DNA of 64,000 nt from Flavobacteriaceae bacterium (GTDB lineage Bacteria > Bacteroidota > Bacteroidia > Flavobacteriales > Flavobacteriaceae). The notes under the pieces were generated by a model, which was not told the DNA's origin, searched no databases, and saw nothing but the letters and a program-made list of their open reading frames with translations. This document shows positions 3,124 to 59,476 of the stretch, piece after piece. The position numbers and the translations under genes were made by a program. The stretch covers positions 434,001 through 498,000 of the forward strand of contig JANQSO010000007.1 of NCBI GenBank assembly GCA_028284005.1. The letters are read 5' to 3'. Each line of letters begins with the position of its first letter. Within the stretch, counting starts at the first letter, position 1.

Positions 3124-3166
3124 TGACAAATATCATATTTCAGCAGAGCCATCTCTCCTATTTTTG
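3124..3166 (+). promoter_or_regulatory. CRP/FNR-type box and -7 element of hemN
   Basis: The box is TGACaaatATCA at 3124-3135 and the -7 element TATTTTTG at 3159-3166. Centre to TTTG centre is 35 nt, class II spacing. hemN is a usual FNR-type target in other bacteria. Confidence 0.85.
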
Positions 3167-4567: not shown

Positions 4568-4610
4568 TGATTAATATCATATTTTATAGCGAACCGTAAT
4601 GTTTATTTTG
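4568..4610 (+). promoter_or_regulatory. CRP/FNR-type box and -7 element of the nirK operon
   Basis: TGATtaatATCA at 4568-4579 is a near-perfect dyad. TTATTTTG at 4603-4610 follows at 35 nt centre to centre. The same -7 sequence is used at norC. Confidence 0.85.
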
Positions 4611-4654: not shown

Positions 4655-5944
4655 ATGAAAAAACTCAACCCTAAACTACTCAACTCTAAACAAGTAATCT
4701 TATCACTATTTCTAACCATTTTTTTTAGCGCAACAATAAAAGCACAGCTTACAGTCGATGCACAGGTGCGTCCCAGACTGGAATACAGGCATGGTTTCAA
4801 AACTCTTTTCCCGGACAATACAGATGCTGCCACTTTTATATCGCAGCGTACACGGTTAAATACCCGGTATAAAAATGAGAAACTAAACTTTTATCTAAGC
4901 CTTCAGGATGTAAGGGTTTGGGGGGATGTGCCTCAATTAAATACATCGGACAAAAATGGCTTTAGTGTTCATCAGGCATGGGGAGAGGTTTTATTGAACC
5001 CACAATTTTCGTTTAAAATAGGAAGGCAGGAGATTTTCTATGACGATCAAAGGATCTTTGGAAATGTTGGATGGGCCCAACAAGCACGTAGCCATGATGC
5101 GGCTCTTTTAAAGTATCGTAAAAACAAATTTAAAATAGACCTGGGATATGCATTTAACCAGGATAGCGAATCATTAGCGGGTCATGTATTGACCACCAAT
5201 ACGTATAAAAGTCTTTTCTATGCCTGGTTGCATAAAGATTGGGAAAATGTTGGTGCCAGTATTTTATACCTGAATAACGGATTGCAATACATAGATGAGG
5301 ATGTACCTGCCAACAACGAAACCCGATATAGTCATACGGCCGGTTCACACATCTATTATAAGAAAGGAAAACTGGCTCTTTCCGCCAATCTTTATTATCA
5401 GTATGGGAAGGACAAAGCAGATAATGACCTAAGTGCCTACCTTTTAGGGCTTGATGCAAAATATGCCTTTTCAAAAAGCGTCACTTCCGGCCTGGGAGTG
5501 GAACTACAAAGCGGTAATGACAATGGGGCTCCAAATAATGGTGAAAACAATGCATTTACACCTCTTTATGGTACCAATCACAAATTCAACGGGCTTATGG
5601 ATTACTTCTACGTAGGTAATCACATTAACAACGTTGGCCTTATAGACCTGAATGCCCATACCAAAATAAAGATCAACACCAAGAACAATTTAAATGTAGC
5701 TGTGCACAATTTCCTTGCTGCAGCAGATATAGCGGGTAGTGATTCAAAACAGTTGGGAACGGAAGTAGACCTGGTGTATACATATGTTCTTTCTAAAGAT
5801 ATCAATTTTAAAGCCGGGTACAGCCAGATGTTTGCTTCGGAAGGACTGGAAATTTTAAAGAACAATGTAGATAATAATACCAATAACTGGGGATGGGTTA
5901 TGGTAACCATAAGCCCTACCCTGTTTCAAACCGAATCTAAGTAA
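4655..5944 (+). CDS. Outer-membrane porin, alginate-export (AlgE-like) family
   Basis: A signal peptide of about 31 residues ends in TIKAQ. The mature protein begins TVDAQVRPRLEYRHG and is made of alternating aromatic beta strands (RLNTRYKNEKLNFYLSLQD, FSFKIGRQEIFYDDQR), the pattern of the alginate_exp barrel family, often placed next to anaerobic respiratory genes in Bacteroidota. First gene of the nirK operon, 21 nt before nirK. Likely role: outer-membrane passage of nitrite or another small anion; this is inferred from position only. Alginate itself is unlikely, as no alginate genes are present. Confidence 0.75.
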   Translation: MKKLNPKLLNSKQVILSLFLTIFFSATIKAQLTVDAQVRPRLEYRHGFKTLFPDNTDAATFISQRTRLNTRYKNEKLNFYLSLQDVRVWGDVPQLNTSDKNGFSVHQAWGEVLLNPQFSFKIGRQEIFYDDQRIFGNVGWAQQARSHDAALLKYRKNKFKIDLGYAFNQDSESLAGHVLTTNTYKSLFYAWLHKDWENVGASILYLNNGLQYIDEDVPANNETRYSHTAGSHIYYKKGKLALSANLYYQYGKDKADNDLSAYLLGLDAKYAFSKSVTSGLGVELQSGNDNGAPNNGENNAFTPLYGTNHKFNGLMDYFYVGNHINNVGLIDLNAHTKIKINTKNNLNVAVHNFLAAADIAGSDSKQLGTEVDLVYTYVLSKDINFKAGYSQMFASEGLEILKNNVDNNTNNWGWVMVTISPTLFQTESK

Positions 5945-5965: not shown

Positions 5966-7429
5966 ATGAAAACAACTTTCAGTAAAAAAATGTATGCCGG
6001 AATATGTATTTTGGGCATCTTTATTATGTTCTCATCTTGCGTGAGCAATACCGAAGATAAAACATATGACGATGCTGCAGACATTCCTGTTTCCAGAGAA
6101 ATGATAGCCGAATTAACTCCACCTCCTTATGTACCAACTCCGGTTGGAAAAAGAAAAGCTAAAAAACTCATAGTCAATATGGAGATCTTAGAACAAGAAG
6201 GAGAAATGACCGATGGTGTAAAATATGTGTATTGGACCTTTGGTGGTTCTGTACCGGGAAGCTTTATAAGAACACGTGTTGGAGATGAAGTGGAGTTTCA
6301 CCTTAAAAATCATCCCGATAACAAATTACCTCATAACATTGACCTGCACGCGGTAACAGGGCCCGGAGGAGGGGCTACTTCCTCATTTGTTGCTCCCGGC
6401 CACGAAGCAAAATTTTCTTTTAAAGTGATAAATCCCGGATTATACGTATATCACTGTGCTACCGCTCCTGTAGGAATGCACGTAGCCAATGGTATGTACG
6501 GACTCATTTTGGTTGAACCGGAAGGAGGTTTACCTGAAGTTGATAAAGAATACTATATCATGCAGGGTGATTTTTATACCAAAGGAGAGAATGGAGACAG
6601 AGGATTGCAGCCTTTCGATATGCAAAAAGCTGTTGATGAAGATGCCGATTATGTTGTATTTAACGGAAAAGTGGGGTCTTTGACCGGGGATAACGCTATT
6701 ACAGCAAATGTGGGTGAGACCGTACGCCTTTATGTTGGAAACGGAGGGCCAAATTTAGTGTCTTCTTTCCACGTGATTGGAGAAATCTTTGACAAAGTAC
6801 ATGTTGAAGGAGGCGACTTTATAAATGAAAACGTACAAACTACCTTGGTTCCCGCTGGTGGTGCTGCCATTGTAGAATTTAGAGTGGACGTTCCGGGAAC
6901 TTTTATTCTTGTTGACCACTCGATCTTCAGGGCATTTAATAAAGGTGCATTGGGAATGCTTAAAGTGCAGGGAGAAGAAAACAAAACCATCTACTCAGGG
7001 AAGCAGGAAGAAGGTATTTACCAACCGGAAGGAGGTGGTATCCAGGAAATGCCCTCTGAAAATGGTGTAGTAGAGTCTGAAATTCCTGCAAAATCGTTTG
7101 AAGAAATGATGGAATTTGGAAAAGCTACCTATATGCAAACATGTTTTGCCTGTCACCAGGCAGAAGGGCAAGGTATTCCAAATGCATTTCCTCCCTTGGC
7201 AGAGTCTGATTACCTGAACGCAGATGTGAATAGAGCCATAGATATCATATTAAATGGTAAGTCCGGAGAAATAACTGTAAACGGACAAAAGTATAATAGT
7301 GTAATGACGCGACAAGATCTTAATGATGATGAGGTTGCCAATGTTCTTACCTATATTTACAATAGTTGGGGGAACTCTAAAAAGCAGGTAACTCCGGCAA
7401 TGGTTAAGAGCAGAAGAAATTCTCACTAA
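5966..7429 (+). CDS. nirK: Copper nitrite reductase with C-terminal cytochrome c domain, lipoprotein
   Basis: Reduces nitrite to NO in the periplasm. The signal peptide has a lipobox FSSC with Cys25, so the enzyme is membrane-tethered. Type 1 copper ligands are His123, Cys164, His172 and Met177; type 2 ligands are His128, His163 and His318, with catalytic Asp126 and His269. After the two cupredoxin domains (about 60-340) and a linker rich in Gly/Glu, a cytochrome c domain carries CFACH at 393-397 and a C-terminal Met (SVMT). The fused heme should pass electrons to the type 1 copper directly. It lies between the porin and nirV. Confidence 0.95.
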
Positions 7430-13958: not shown

Positions 13959-14001
13959 CAAAATTATGGGTATATGAAATCAATAAATATGATAAAAATC
14001 A
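13959..14001 (-). promoter_or_regulatory. CRP/FNR-type box and -7 element of nadAB
   Basis: Box TGATaaaaATCA (plus-strand reading) at 13990-14001; -7 TAATTTTG on the minus strand at 13966-13959. Spacing is 35 nt centre to centre. Confidence 0.8.
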
Positions 14002-23825: not shown

Positions 23826-23868
23826 CAAAATAAGCAATAACTCTTCTATAATAATATGACAAAAGTCA
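23826..23868 (-). promoter_or_regulatory. CRP/FNR-type box and -7 element of norCB
   Basis: ATATGAC-AAAA-GTCATAT is a perfect dyad, core at 23857-23868. The -7 element TTATTTTG on the minus strand is at 23833-23826. Spacing is 35 nt. Confidence 0.85.
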
Positions 23869-32855: not shown

Positions 32856-32898
32856 CAAAGGTTGAAATTGTGTTCTGTTTAAAAAATGATAAATATCA
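32856..32898 (-). promoter_or_regulatory. CRP/FNR-type box and -7 element of ccoI
   Basis: Box TGATaaatATCA at 32887-32898; -7 AACCTTTG on the minus strand at 32863-32856. Spacing is 35 nt. The element lies in a small dyad, ACCTTTGGCAAAGGT. Confidence 0.8.
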
Positions 32899-34214: not shown

Positions 34215-34257
34215 CAAAGGTTCGGCTTAATCTATTTTAATCATATGACAATAATCA
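34215..34257 (-). promoter_or_regulatory. CRP/FNR-type box and -7 element of the CoA-transferase gene
   Basis: Box TGACaataATCA at 34246-34257; -7 AACCTTTG on the minus strand at 34222-34215, identical to the ccoI element. Spacing is 35 nt. Confidence 0.75.
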
Positions 34258-41833: not shown

Positions 41834-41876
41834 CAAAAATACCAGTGAAAGAACTCATAAAATATGATAATTATCA
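41834..41876 (-). promoter_or_regulatory. CRP/FNR-type box and -7 element of the nos operon
   Basis: Box TGATaattATCA at 41865-41876, a perfect dyad; -7 TATTTTTG on the minus strand at 41841-41834. Spacing is 35 nt. Confidence 0.88.
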
Positions 41877-41954: not shown

Positions 41955-42383
41955 ATGTTATCAAATTCTTCAAAATATGCTGTGAAAGCATTGGCATATA
42001 TTGTAACGGCCTCTTCAGAAGAAAATAAATTACTTGTAAAGAATATCGCTGAAGAGACAGATGTCCCAAAACCATTTCTATCTAAGATCTTACAACAATT
42101 ATCTACCAAAAAGTACATCTCTTCCACAAAGGGACCCAATGGTGGTTTTTTTGTAACCGAAGAACAATTAAAGCATTCTGTATTAGATATTGTCATTGAA
42201 ATTGAAGGTAAAGACAGGTTACAGCTTTGTGCTCTCAATTTTGAGAACTGCGATGCGGAAAATCCCTGCCCTATTCACAAATTCATTGCACCTGCAAAAG
42301 AGGCCCTAAGAGAAAGTTTTGAGGCCATCACACTGGAAGACCTTAAGGATAAAGGAGCTTTTGAAAATCTTGACATGACATAA
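41955..42383 (+). CDS. Rrf2-family iron-sulfur regulator, NsrR-like
   Basis: Rrf2 winged helix: SSKYAVKALAYIV, the recognition segment VPKPFLSKILQQLS and the wing GPNGGFFV. Three cysteines, Cys92-x6-Cys99-x5-Cys105, sit where IscR and NsrR bind their cluster. NsrR senses NO through that cluster and represses NO-detoxifying genes. The setting among nir, nor and nos genes favours NsrR over IscR, as no isc or suf genes are near. Candidate operators are the AAGA-N8-TCTT dyads listed here, one of which precedes this gene. Confidence 0.85.
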   Translation: MLSNSSKYAVKALAYIVTASSEENKLLVKNIAEETDVPKPFLSKILQQLSTKKYISSTKGPNGGFFVTEEQLKHSVLDIVIEIEGKDRLQLCALNFENCDAENPCPIHKFIAPAKEALRESFEAITLEDLKDKGAFENLDMT

Positions 42384-42418
42384 ATCATAGTTATAGAAGC
42401 CCATTCCATCTAATTTTG
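42376..42418 (+). promoter_or_regulatory. CRP/FNR-type box and -7 element of a Usp gene
   Basis: Box TGACataaATCA at 42376-42387 overlaps the rrf2 stop codon; -7 TAATTTTG at 42411-42418. Spacing is 35 nt. Confidence 0.8.
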
Positions 42419-45928: not shown

Positions 45929-45971
45929 TAAATTTAAGGGTATAATGCTTCATAAAATATGACCATTATCA
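45929..45971 (-). promoter_or_regulatory. CRP/FNR-type box and -7 element of hsp20
   Basis: Box TGACcattATCA at 45960-45971; -7 TAAATTTA on the minus strand at 45936-45929. Spacing is 35 nt. Confidence 0.78.
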
Positions 45972-51768: not shown

Positions 51769-51811
51769 CAAATCTATCATTTCTGAGTGAAAAAAAATAT
51801 GACAATTGTCA
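51769..51811 (-). promoter_or_regulatory. CRP/FNR-type box and -7 element of the Usp-nuclease operon
   Basis: Box TGACaattGTCA, a perfect dyad, at 51800-51811; -7 TAGATTTG on the minus strand at 51776-51769. Spacing is 35 nt. Confidence 0.85.
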
Positions 51812-52726: not shown

Positions 52727-52769
52727 CAAATGTATCCTGATGATTTTTTCTAAAGAATGACAATAATCA
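52727..52769 (-). promoter_or_regulatory. CRP/FNR-type box and -7 element of a Usp gene
   Basis: Box TGACaataATCA at 52758-52769; -7 TACATTTG on the minus strand at 52734-52727. Spacing is 35 nt. The box lies between this gene and the stop of the REC-CRP gene. Confidence 0.8.
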
Positions 52770-52787: not shown

Positions 52788-53846
52788 TTAATCTATTAAT
52801 TGAAGTTTTTGCAGGTCGAGAATTTTTATGTTGCGGCCTTCAATATCTATAATCCCTTCTTTTTTGAATCCGGAAAGGGTTCTTATAAGGCTTTCTGTAG
52901 CAATACCGGCAACACTTGCAAGGTCGTTACGGGAAATTTTGATGGTATCTTCCGACTTTTTATTAAGTATTTCCGCAAATTGAAGTATGGTCTGAGCTGT
53001 TTTTTTACGCACCGAACTATATGCCATTTGCAAGAGTTGCTCTTTAACTTCAGAGAGGTTATCTGTTAATACATTCATTAGTTCCAGGGATACATTATTA
53101 CTTTTCCCCAGTACTTCTTTTAGTTCCATTTTTGAAATTGCTGCCAGTTCAACATCTCCTACGGCTGTGGAAGATTCCTGGTAGGGAATGTTCTCATCAA
53201 AAGAAGTAAAACCTAAAAAATCGTCCGCTTTATGTAGTGCGGTGGTCAATTCTTTACCGCTTTCATCCATTTTATGGCTCTTTACAACTCCTTTAAGAAT
53301 AAGAAAGATATTATTGGAATGGTCTCCGATCTTATAAATGGTTTCCCCTTTCCTATACGTAGAGATAATACCATTATCATCAAAAAAGTTTTTAAGCTCA
53401 TTGAGGTTTCTCAGGTTATTCTCATCCTCTTCATTTACCTCCTCATGAGGTTGCTCCTTCATAATTCTCGACAGAATACTGGCTTTGGCCAAGCGGCTTT
53501 CAATGGCACTCAATAATTCTCCTTCTTCAAAAGGCTTGGTAAGGTAATCATCGGCACCTAAATCCATTCCCTTACGAATCTCTTTATGCTCTGTTTTTGC
53601 AGAAAGGAATATAAATGGGATCTGGTTTACAGAAGAATCTCCGGCAAGTGATTCTAAAACACCATATCCGTCCACCACCGGCATCATAATATCACAAACT
53701 ATAATATCCGGTTTTTCCTGTTTGGCCTTATCAATTCCTAATTTTCCATTAGGAGCGGTGATCACCTTATAACTATTAAGTTCCAGTAACTCAGCCGTGT
53801 TTTCACGCAGGGCGGTATCATCTTCAATTATAAGGACAGTTTTCAT
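52788..53846 (-). CDS. Response-regulator receiver fused to a CRP/FNR-type DNA-binding protein
   Basis: Residues 1-120 are a receiver domain with acidic Asp9/Asp10, phospho-acceptor Asp52, Thr/Ser in LSAKT and Lys104 in LTKPF. After a Glu-rich linker, residues about 150-265 are a cNMP-type beta-barrel (GETIYKIGDHSNNIFLILKG) and 275-345 a CRP HTH. The recognition helix reads GIATESLIRTLSGFKKEG, with Glu318 and Arg322 at the positions that read TGA half-sites in CRP and FNR. There is no FNR-style cysteine cluster, so the signal should be phosphorylation. It lies 14 nt after the kinase gene. It is the prime candidate for activating the TGAY-N4-RTCA promoters. Confidence 0.9.
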   Translation of the reverse strand: MKTVLIIEDDTALRENTAELLELNSYKVITAPNGKLGIDKAKQEKPDIIVCDIMMPVVDGYGVLESLAGDSSVNQIPFIFLSAKTEHKEIRKGMDLGADDYLTKPFEEGELLSAIESRLAKASILSRIMKEQPHEEVNEEDENNLRNLNELKNFFDDNGIISTYRKGETIYKIGDHSNNIFLILKGVVKSHKMDESGKELTTALHKADDFLGFTSFDENIPYQESSTAVGDVELAAISKMELKEVLGKSNNVSLELMNVLTDNLSEVKEQLLQMAYSSVRKKTAQTILQFAEILNKKSEDTIKISRNDLASVAGIATESLIRTLSGFKKEGIIDIEGRNIKILDLQKLQLID

Positions 53847-53860
53847 GATAATTTGCAGTT

Positions 53861-55084
53861 CTAAGTGAGAGGAAATTCGACTGTAAAAGTGCTTCCTTTG
53901 TTTTCTTCACTTGTAAAGGTAATTGTCCCGCCCACATTTTCCAAATGACTTTTCACGATATTGAGCCCTATACCTGTCCCCTGGTCCAGCAGTGCATTTT
54001 CCGCCCTGAAATATCGATTGAAAATAAATTTTTGTTCCTTTTTTGGGATTCCCATTCCCTCATCTTGTATACTAATGGAAAGTTTATCTCCTTTTAACTT
54101 AACACTCACATCTATAGTACTATTTTCCGGTGAGTATTTAATGGCATTATTGATCAAATTGGTAAGGATAAGTTCTAATATCTTCTCATCAAAATTAACT
54201 ACTATATCATCTATATCTTGAGGATAATTAATTTTTTGGCCTGCTTTAAGCAACATATTGGCATCGTAAATAACTTCATTTATAACTTTACTAAGCGGAA
54301 ATGTATTAAACTTATACGTTGCTTTACCGGATTCAATACGTTCAATAGATAGAAAGTCACTTAAGATATTGTTCAAATACTTGACTTTACTTTGAATGGT
54401 CTTAAGGTGCTTTTCTCTTTTTTCCTGTTGCTCTGTTAGTGTATATTTCCCTGCCAGTGTAACAGAGGTTAGAATTCCACTTAATGGTGTTTTAAATTCA
54501 TGAGAGACCAAAGAAAGAAATTTAGTTTTAAGCTCATTAAGCTCTCGTTCTTTTTGCAATGATTCCTTAATCTTGTTTTCTGCTTCTTTACGTTTTATTA
54601 CCTCTTCTTTTAACTCCAGGATCGTGCTATGGAGCTCTTTGGTACGTTTTTCGATCTTCTGCTCCAGGCTCTCATTAAATTCCCTGATTTCCCTTTCCTG
54701 GTTCTTTCTAATGGTAATATCACTAACCAAAGCCATTACATATTGGGTCTCATAGATCATAAAAGGGTTTAACCCGGCTTCTACAGGAAAGACAACTCCG
54801 TCTTTTCGCAAACCAAATATATCCCTGCCGTGCCCCATTTGCCTTACACCGCTATGATCGACAAATTCTTCAAAATGACCTTCATGTTTTTTGTGATATT
54901 CCTTCGGAATTAGAAGATTGAGCTGCTTTCCTAATAATTCGTCATCTTTATAACCAAACATCTCATTAGCTGCTCCATTAGATGCCACGATCTCTTGTTT
55001 ATCATTTACAATGATAATGCCTTCAGAGATCGCTTCAGAGAGTAATCTAAAAATATTTCCCTGCTTTTCTTCAAAAACCTTCAT
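53861..55084 (-). CDS. Cytosolic PAS-domain sensor histidine kinase, FixL-like
   Basis: Start taken at ATG 55084 (MKVFEEKQGNIF); the longer frame to 55198 would cover the promoter. There is no membrane helix. A PAS domain (about 10-125) has YHKKHEGHFEEF and GHGRDIFGLRKDGVVFP, which align with the heme-bearing region of FixL (its heme His lies in the EHDGY segment), but similar sequences occur in non-heme PAS domains. A coiled coil, HisKA (SHEFKTPLSG, phospho-His about 195) and HATPase (NLINNAIKYSP, DEGMGIP, GTGIGL) follow. It is the evident partner of the REC-CRP regulator. Confidence 0.88.
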   Translation of the reverse strand: MKVFEEKQGNIFRLLSEAISEGIIIVNDKQEIVASNGAANEMFGYKDDELLGKQLNLLIPKEYHKKHEGHFEEFVDHSGVRQMGHGRDIFGLRKDGVVFPVEAGLNPFMIYETQYVMALVSDITIRKNQEREIREFNESLEQKIEKRTKELHSTILELKEEVIKRKEAENKIKESLQKERELNELKTKFLSLVSHEFKTPLSGILTSVTLAGKYTLTEQQEKREKHLKTIQSKVKYLNNILSDFLSIERIESGKATYKFNTFPLSKVINEVIYDANMLLKAGQKINYPQDIDDIVVNFDEKILELILTNLINNAIKYSPENSTIDVSVKLKGDKLSISIQDEGMGIPKKEQKFIFNRYFRAENALLDQGTGIGLNIVKSHLENVGGTITFTSEENKGSTFTVEFPLT

Positions 55085-55089
55085 GCCTT

Positions 55090-55164
55090 CAAAAATAGTA
55101 ATTAATAATAGTTTACCGAACTGATTTTTATCATAAAATAAGGGGCCGAAGTTTCCTACTTTTA
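55090..55164. promoter_or_regulatory. Shared CRP/FNR-type box for the divergent kinase and TerB-like genes
   Basis: Box TGATttttATCA at 55122-55133. Minus side: TATTTTTG at 55097-55090, 36 nt from the box centre. Plus side: TACTTTTA at 55157-55164, 35 nt. The kinase-regulator operon is thus probably autoregulated. Confidence 0.75.
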
Positions 55165-55190
55165 TAACGTATTTTTTAAGAAATGTAACT

Positions 55191-55595
55191 ATGGACATAT
55201 CTCAAAAACCCGAAATACTATTCTATCAAAAAATAGGAAAACTATTCTATGCAATTGCTGCTGCAGATAAAGTTGTGCATGAGAAAGAATACGAGGTCCT
55301 ATTGCAAATTGTAAAGTCCCACTGGACAAAACTTGATGACTTTGAAGACGAATTCCACTCGGATGCTGCATTTCAAATTGAAATTGTATTTGGATGGTCA
55401 GACTATAAGCAACTAAAAGCCAATGAATGTTTTGAAGAATTCAAGGATTTCAAAAAAGAGCACGAAAGACTATTTGGTGCCAAAAGAAAAGAACTTATCT
55501 GGAAAACTGCAAATACAATTGCCAGTGCTTTTGCCGGAAAAAACAAATCGGAATTAATAATGCTCACAAAACTTAAATTATTACTAGAACAGTAA
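55191..55595 (+). CDS. TerB-like protein
   Basis: 134 aa, helical. The N-terminal FYQKIGKLFYAIAAADKVVHEKEYEVL is the TerB/DUF533-like hallmark (A-D-G/K-x-x-x-x-E), followed by an EFKDFKKEHERLF repeat-like helix and a final helix. TerB proteins bind metal and associate with membranes in tellurite-resistance systems; no other ter genes are here. Role unknown. Confidence 0.75.
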   Translation: MDISQKPEILFYQKIGKLFYAIAAADKVVHEKEYEVLLQIVKSHWTKLDDFEDEFHSDAAFQIEIVFGWSDYKQLKANECFEEFKDFKKEHERLFGAKRKELIWKTANTIASAFAGKNKSELIMLTKLKLLLEQ

Positions 55596-59433: not shown

Positions 59434-59476
59434 CAAATTTACCTGGGAATTCTCAAAAAAAAAATGATATATGTCA
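59434..59476 (-). promoter_or_regulatory. CRP/FNR-type box and -7 element of hpf-usp
   Basis: Box TGATatatGTCA at 59465-59476; -7 TAAATTTG on the minus strand at 59441-59434. Spacing is 35 nt. 59477-59608 otherwise holds only an AT-rich leader for upp. Confidence 0.82.

Follow-up and report, generated by a model that had tools for sequence, protein, structure and literature searches.

The window, by which we mean the whole 64,000-nucleotide stretch of DNA analyzed here, belongs to a marine bacterium. On its minus strand, it holds the gene of a soluble PAS sensor histidine kinase, followed after a gap of only 14 nucleotides by a gene encoding a receiver domain joined to a CRP-type protein (hereafter, the fusion), an arrangement that the original prediction had described correctly, in both coordinates and spacing (open reading frames [ORFs] and Pfam). 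The neighborhood of the fusion includes genes for a cbb3 oxidase and an NO reductase, a nos cluster, a nirK-like gene, hemN, nrdD, and stress genes. While an alternative, longer kinase ORF begins at ATG 55198, relatives and the promoter led us to favor the start at ATG 55084. The features of the pair are as follows:

53861..55084, minus strand: PAS sensor histidine kinase, soluble, 407 aa (ORF; Pfam PAS 12-123, HisKA 186-253, HATPase_c 299-406)
54716..55051, minus strand: kinase PAS domain, residues 12-123 (Pfam; best PDB relatives, the heme PAS domains of FixL, DosP, and FG214)
54884..54886, minus strand: His67, at the position of the FixL heme ligand (H194/H200) (phmmer alignment to 1d06; 49/49 PAS)
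54824..54826, minus strand: Arg87, at the position of FixL R220 (R in 79/80 near-set kinases; M, L, or V in many distant families)
52788..53846, minus strand: receiver-CRP fusion response regulator, 352 aa (ORF; Pfam domains)
53499..53837, minus strand: receiver domain of the fusion, residues 4-116, with Asp52 and Lys104 (Pfam Response_reg)
53106..53360, minus strand: cNMP-binding-type beta-roll of the fusion, residues 163-247 (Pfam cNMP_binding)
52800..52997, minus strand: HTH_Crp_2 of the fusion, residues 284-349, with recognition helix ATESLIR (E318, R322) (Pfam; model)

Anatomy, ancestry, and spread of the fusion

The receiver of the fusion matches Response_reg (Pfam, 2.5e-28), with the acidic pocket, the phospho-acceptor aspartate, and the lysine all in place, and by its sequence the fusion qualifies as a two-component response regulator. 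Among 140 distinct relatives, D9, D52, K104, E318, and R322 are invariant, which includes all four residues (Asp52, Lys104, Glu318, and Arg322) that had been singled out beforehand. Glu318 and Arg322 provide the E...R pair with which an FNR-type recognition helix contacts TGA; in the structure model, in which the receiver and CRP parts are confident and the linker is poorly defined, this helix spans residues 317 to 329. The second part of the protein, originally described as a CRP-type DNA-binding half, does contain the Crp-type helix-turn-helix (HTH) but is not merely that: since Pfam places a cNMP_binding domain ahead of HTH_Crp_2, it is a complete CRP/FNR protein. The cluster-ligating cysteines of FNR were looked for in the CRP halves of the 140 sequences and, as anticipated, were not found; 90 of these halves lack cysteine altogether, and no cysteine position is conserved in them. 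A cysteine elsewhere in the fusion, at residue 51 (window positions 53691-53693), immediately before the phospho-acceptor, is invariant (140/140).

The GerE/LuxR-type HTH of FixJ is absent from the fusion (no GerE match in Pfam), which carries HTH_Crp_2 and cNMP_binding instead. Its receiver is closest to OmpR/PhoB-type receivers, and descent of this domain from FixJ is not supported. Scored against the curated FixK model NF050806, the fusion, which is not a stand-alone protein, reached 64.1 bits (cutoff, 300), and against the curated CRP model NF008732 it reached 66.4 bits (cutoff, 266). In a tree of CRP halves, all fusions fell into one clade (95/100), beside stand-alone FNR-type proteins of Bacteroidia; neither this grouping nor the NF050806 score supports descent from FixK, and, judging from these comparisons, the CRP half is FNR-type. 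The E...R motif of its recognition helix also occurs in 13 of 15 stand-alone proteins bearing a CxxC motif.

The fusion was found in 194 of 396 sampled Bacteroidia genomes, and a kinase is adjacent to it in 118 of the 120 loci checked. In 79 of the 80 near loci (Flavobacteriaceae and neighbors), a related kinase lies directly upstream. Of a further 40 loci, drawn from different families of the class, 39 show this arrangement, and the gaps there reach up to 181 nucleotides. Two loci, L074 (one Aquimarina locus) and L152, have a fusion without an adjacent kinase, and plasmids NZ_CP007144.1 and NZ_CP051678.1 (Hymenobacter, Spirosoma) carry a copy of the fusion together with a kinase. A search of the phylum, the composition of which is known for the genomes listed only, gave no match outside the class Bacteroidia. 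The positions of both genes were listed for 75 genomes; in 30 of them, the fusion and ccoN are no more than 30 kb apart (within 11.1 kb in 26 of these 30), far more often than random placement in genomes several megabases long would produce. A literature search of incomplete coverage yielded no description of such a pair.

TGAYN4RTCA boxes and promoter geometry

The window contains 18 TGAYN4RTCA boxes, against 4.1 expected, a number reached in none of 100 shuffles. Of the 467 boxes counted across the 80 near loci, 360 fall between genes (reversed pattern, 4 of 54), and their positions peak sharply 50 to 70 nucleotides upstream of start codons. Chance origin is thus ruled out by both the shuffles and the reversed-pattern control. 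Boxes are present at the cbb3, NO reductase, nos, and hemN promoters, and the following sites precede genes:

3124..3135, plus strand: box + N23 + TAnnTTTG upstream of hemN; ATG 57 nucleotides from the box center
4568..4579, plus strand: box upstream of a beta-barrel protein gene (ORF at 4655), after which comes a NirK-like gene at 5966
13990..14001, minus strand: box + N23 + TAnnTTTG upstream of nadA
23857..23868, minus strand: box upstream of norC (NO reductase)
32887..32898, minus strand: box upstream of ccoI, which heads the cbb3 cluster
34246..34257, minus strand: box upstream of an acetyl-CoA hydrolase-like gene
41865..41876, no strand assigned: box + N23 + TAnnTTTG upstream of cytochrome c/nos cluster and divergent rrf2 gene
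42376..42387, plus strand: box + N23 + TAnnTTTG upstream of a universal stress protein gene
45960..45971, minus strand: box upstream of an HSP20 gene
51800..51811, minus strand: box + N23 + TAnnTTTG upstream of a universal stress protein gene
52758..52769, minus strand: box + N23 + TAnnTTTG upstream of a universal stress protein gene
55122..55133, no strand assigned: box TGATTTTTATCA, 38 to 49 nucleotides upstream of kinase ATG 55084, also upstream of a divergent ORF at 55191
59465..59476, minus strand: box + N23 + TAnnTTTG upstream of a ribosome hibernation factor-like gene

In related loci, the boxes sit in promoters, and the spacing between box and -7 element (TAnnTTTG) is most often 23 nucleotides (164 cases), less often 24 (26 cases) or 25 (12 cases); the control has none at these distances. 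In Flavobacterium psychrophilum, TAnnTTTG occupies positions -12 to -5 (PMC9723704), and, with the 23-nucleotide spacing, this puts the center of the box at -41.5, the position of a class II activator. Genome-wide, we counted 15 composite sites (box, N23, and -7 element; control, 1), of which 11 lie in a 68-kb stretch covering the window.

The promoter of the pair itself carries a box as well, as had been claimed for the window. When the window was compared with 79 relatives, 67 of these 80 sequences had a strict box no more than 170 nucleotides ahead of the kinase start, usually at -48/-49. In the window, this box lies 63 nucleotides before the divergent ORF at 55191 (window positions 55122-55198), with TACTTTTA 23 nucleotides downstream, and it may drive transcription in both directions. 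A regulator of the Rrf2 family with a C-x6-C-x5-C motif, possibly an NO or Fe-S sensor, adjoins the nos cluster (window positions 41955-42383) and shares the box at 41865. In loci L115 to L154, from many families, boxes also occur as tandem pairs exactly 22 nucleotides apart (51 pairs; next commonest spacing, 5); such tandem boxes are found at the ccoN loci of fusion-less genomes, too, and not in loci of the Flavobacteriaceae type.

Stand-alone FNR and the Fix cascade as points of comparison

The presence of boxes at ccoN failed as proof of a role for the fusion: ccoN loci of fusion-less genomes carry them equally often, so that boxes alone do not identify the regulator. It was this observation that led to the finding of an apparent replacement of FNR. 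In fusion-less genomes, stand-alone proteins with a CxxC motif, a CFIP cysteine, and the same recognition helix often adjoin ccoN. Of 249 genomes with ccoN, the fusion alone is present in 114, the FNR-type protein alone in 76, both in 43, and neither in 16. FNR-like proteins were called here with a single query and an E-value threshold, and the conclusions were stable for cuts from 1e-44 to 1e-54. The two regulators are thus mutually exclusive to a large extent: within families of cbb3-bearing genomes, the odds ratio for co-occurrence of the two is 0.035, and none of 20,000 within-family permutations gave as few double carriers as observed. The simplest reading of these sequence comparisons is that the fusion and the FNR-type protein replace one another and that the fusion serves the boxes in the genome of the window; across Bacteroidia, the pair appears usually to replace the classical iron-sulfur oxygen regulator FNR. 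The more specific statement, that a heme-PAS kinase and a receiver-FNR fusion took over from Fe-S FNR, in roughly half of Bacteroidia, the role of master switch for cbb3 respiration and denitrification, with boxes and promoters kept, we consider a little less than evenly balanced, and we are equally hesitant to call the outcome a one-step kinase-to-FNR oxygen circuit.

The stand-alone FNR proteins of Bacteroidia are the nearest relatives of the CRP half of the fusion and share its recognition helix (TES.IR) as well as the boxes and their spacing at ccoN loci. However, they have N-terminal cysteines and would sense O2 themselves, whereas the fusion lacks these cysteines and has a receiver attached. 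With OmpR/PhoB-type two-component systems, the pair shares a HisKA kinase beside a receiver protein with all phosphorylation residues, but their output domain is a winged helix and that of the fusion is a complete CRP/FNR protein. The FixL-FixJ-FixK cascade of rhizobia likewise has a FixL-type PAS kinase at the top and, at the bottom, an activator of the CRP/FNR family without Fe-S cysteines, acting on cbb3 and denitrification targets. It consists of three proteins, though, and the pair of only two, with the receiver on the CRP-type activator itself; the fusion lacks the GerE/LuxR-type HTH, its receiver is of the OmpR/PhoB type, and its CRP half belongs to the FNR-type lineage of Bacteroidia rather than to FixK. 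In the hFixL-FxkR-FixK system of Rhizobium, a FixL-type kinase also acts through a response regulator on FixK control of cbb3 (fixNOQP), but FxkR is an intermediate that induces FixK (PMC7888657), and the pair has no such intermediate.

The proposal that the locus represents a compressed FixL-FixJ-FixK cascade therefore stands as a two-protein functional analogy, given the PAS kinase and the boxes at the targets, and is not supported as a statement of ancestry, given the affinities of receiver and CRP half. As far as sequence can tell, the Fix cascade is a good functional analogy for the pair and not its ancestor, and the functional picture drawn from the window alone is largely supported by the comparative evidence. 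Because of the OmpR/PhoB-type receiver and FNR-type CRP half, a description as FNR under kinase control fits better; by analogy, this FNR-type regulator would function as the Fix cascade does, in shortened form.

Bacteroidota play a major part in microaerobic degradation and N2O reduction, and our literature search found no account of how they induce cbb3 oxidase or nos genes when oxygen is low. The present analysis names a likely regulator, the DNA box and promoter geometry that go with it, and the genes that it would control. The analysis also suggests that a regulon kept its binding sites while a phosphorylation switch took the place of a cysteine-bearing FNR as its sensor, a swap that would make the evolution of regulator replacement testable within one bacterial class.

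Proposed circuit and oxygen sensing

Taken together, the domain anatomy, the invariant catalytic and DNA-contact residues, the gene pairing, the linkage to cbb3, and the number, position, and spacing of the boxes, all read from sequence, make it probable, in our judgment, that the pair is a dedicated low-oxygen two-component system, and the pair appears to turn on genes for low-oxygen respiration and denitrification in the source bacterium. In such a system, the soluble kinase would sense oxygen, most likely via heme on His67 of its PAS domain, or a related redox signal. When oxygen falls, it would phosphorylate Asp52 of the fusion, the FNR-type half of which would then dimerize on TGAYN4RTCA boxes near -41.5 and activate RNA polymerase as a class II activator. 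Putative targets are the cbb3 oxidase, NO reductase, nos, hemN, and stress genes, as well as the operon of kinase and regulator itself.

That oxygen or redox sensing would sit in the kinase, as originally proposed, agrees with the pairing of a PAS kinase with a fusion devoid of FNR cysteines and with the boxes at its targets. The suspected FixL likeness also held: in sequence and fold, the PAS domain is nearest to the heme PAS domains of FixL, DosP, and FG214, and its His67, matching the heme-ligand histidine of FixL, is invariant in 49 of 49 PAS domains from near and distant loci. Heme sensing is likely on this evidence, but a serious, if less probable, competing view is that the transcriptional half of the scheme is right and the PAS domain, without heme or direct O2 sensing, reads, for instance, the quinone redox state, NO, or a flavin. 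Non-heme PAS domains may also have a histidine at the position of His67, and the distal pocket is unlike that of FixL, of which residues other than Arg87 are not kept (the I215 position is Q82 in the kinase); the AlphaFold2 model shows the right fold, with low confidence in the heme-pocket region. Sensor parts, moreover, differ strongly among distant families, with M, L, or V at the arginine position in many and, in a few, a receiver replacing PAS or transmembrane segments, and for these reasons the input signal may differ between lineages. Against the non-heme view, just four columns of the PAS domain are invariant, His67 among them, heme PAS domains make up all 14 of the closest PDB sequences, with a large E-value gap to the first non-heme PAS (5e-9 against 3e-4), and kinases of two families (L132 and L135) have a near-textbook FixL PAS.

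Doubts about the transcriptional half itself carry far less weight. It is improbable that another Crp/Fnr protein mainly serves the boxes of this genome, leaving few or other genes to the fusion, even though fusion-less genomes have the same boxes at ccoN: the box in the operon promoter of the fusion is conserved, and searches of the genome, which has the fusion, found no CxxC-bearing FNR-type protein. It does have three other Crp proteins, but two of them, L082 and L083, are without the E...R contact pair, and the third, L084, the helix of which has E and R, matches the HTH family only partially and below the cutoff. We think it just as improbable that the fusion is mainly a repressor, released, for example, by phosphorylation. 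The box in the kinase promoter of the window lies 24 nucleotides from the -7 element, centered near -42.5, and could for that reason mean repression rather than activation; the deduced kinase transcript would be nearly leaderless, and autorepression is common. Over hundreds of promoters, however, boxes cluster at the class II activator position, and the target genes are of a kind induced at low oxygen in other flavobacteria, cbb3 among them (PMC9723704).

Finally, in the fusion-paired kinases of L115, L130, L146, L147, and L153, a receiver is found instead of the PAS domain, suggesting that these kinases receive their input from another kinase.
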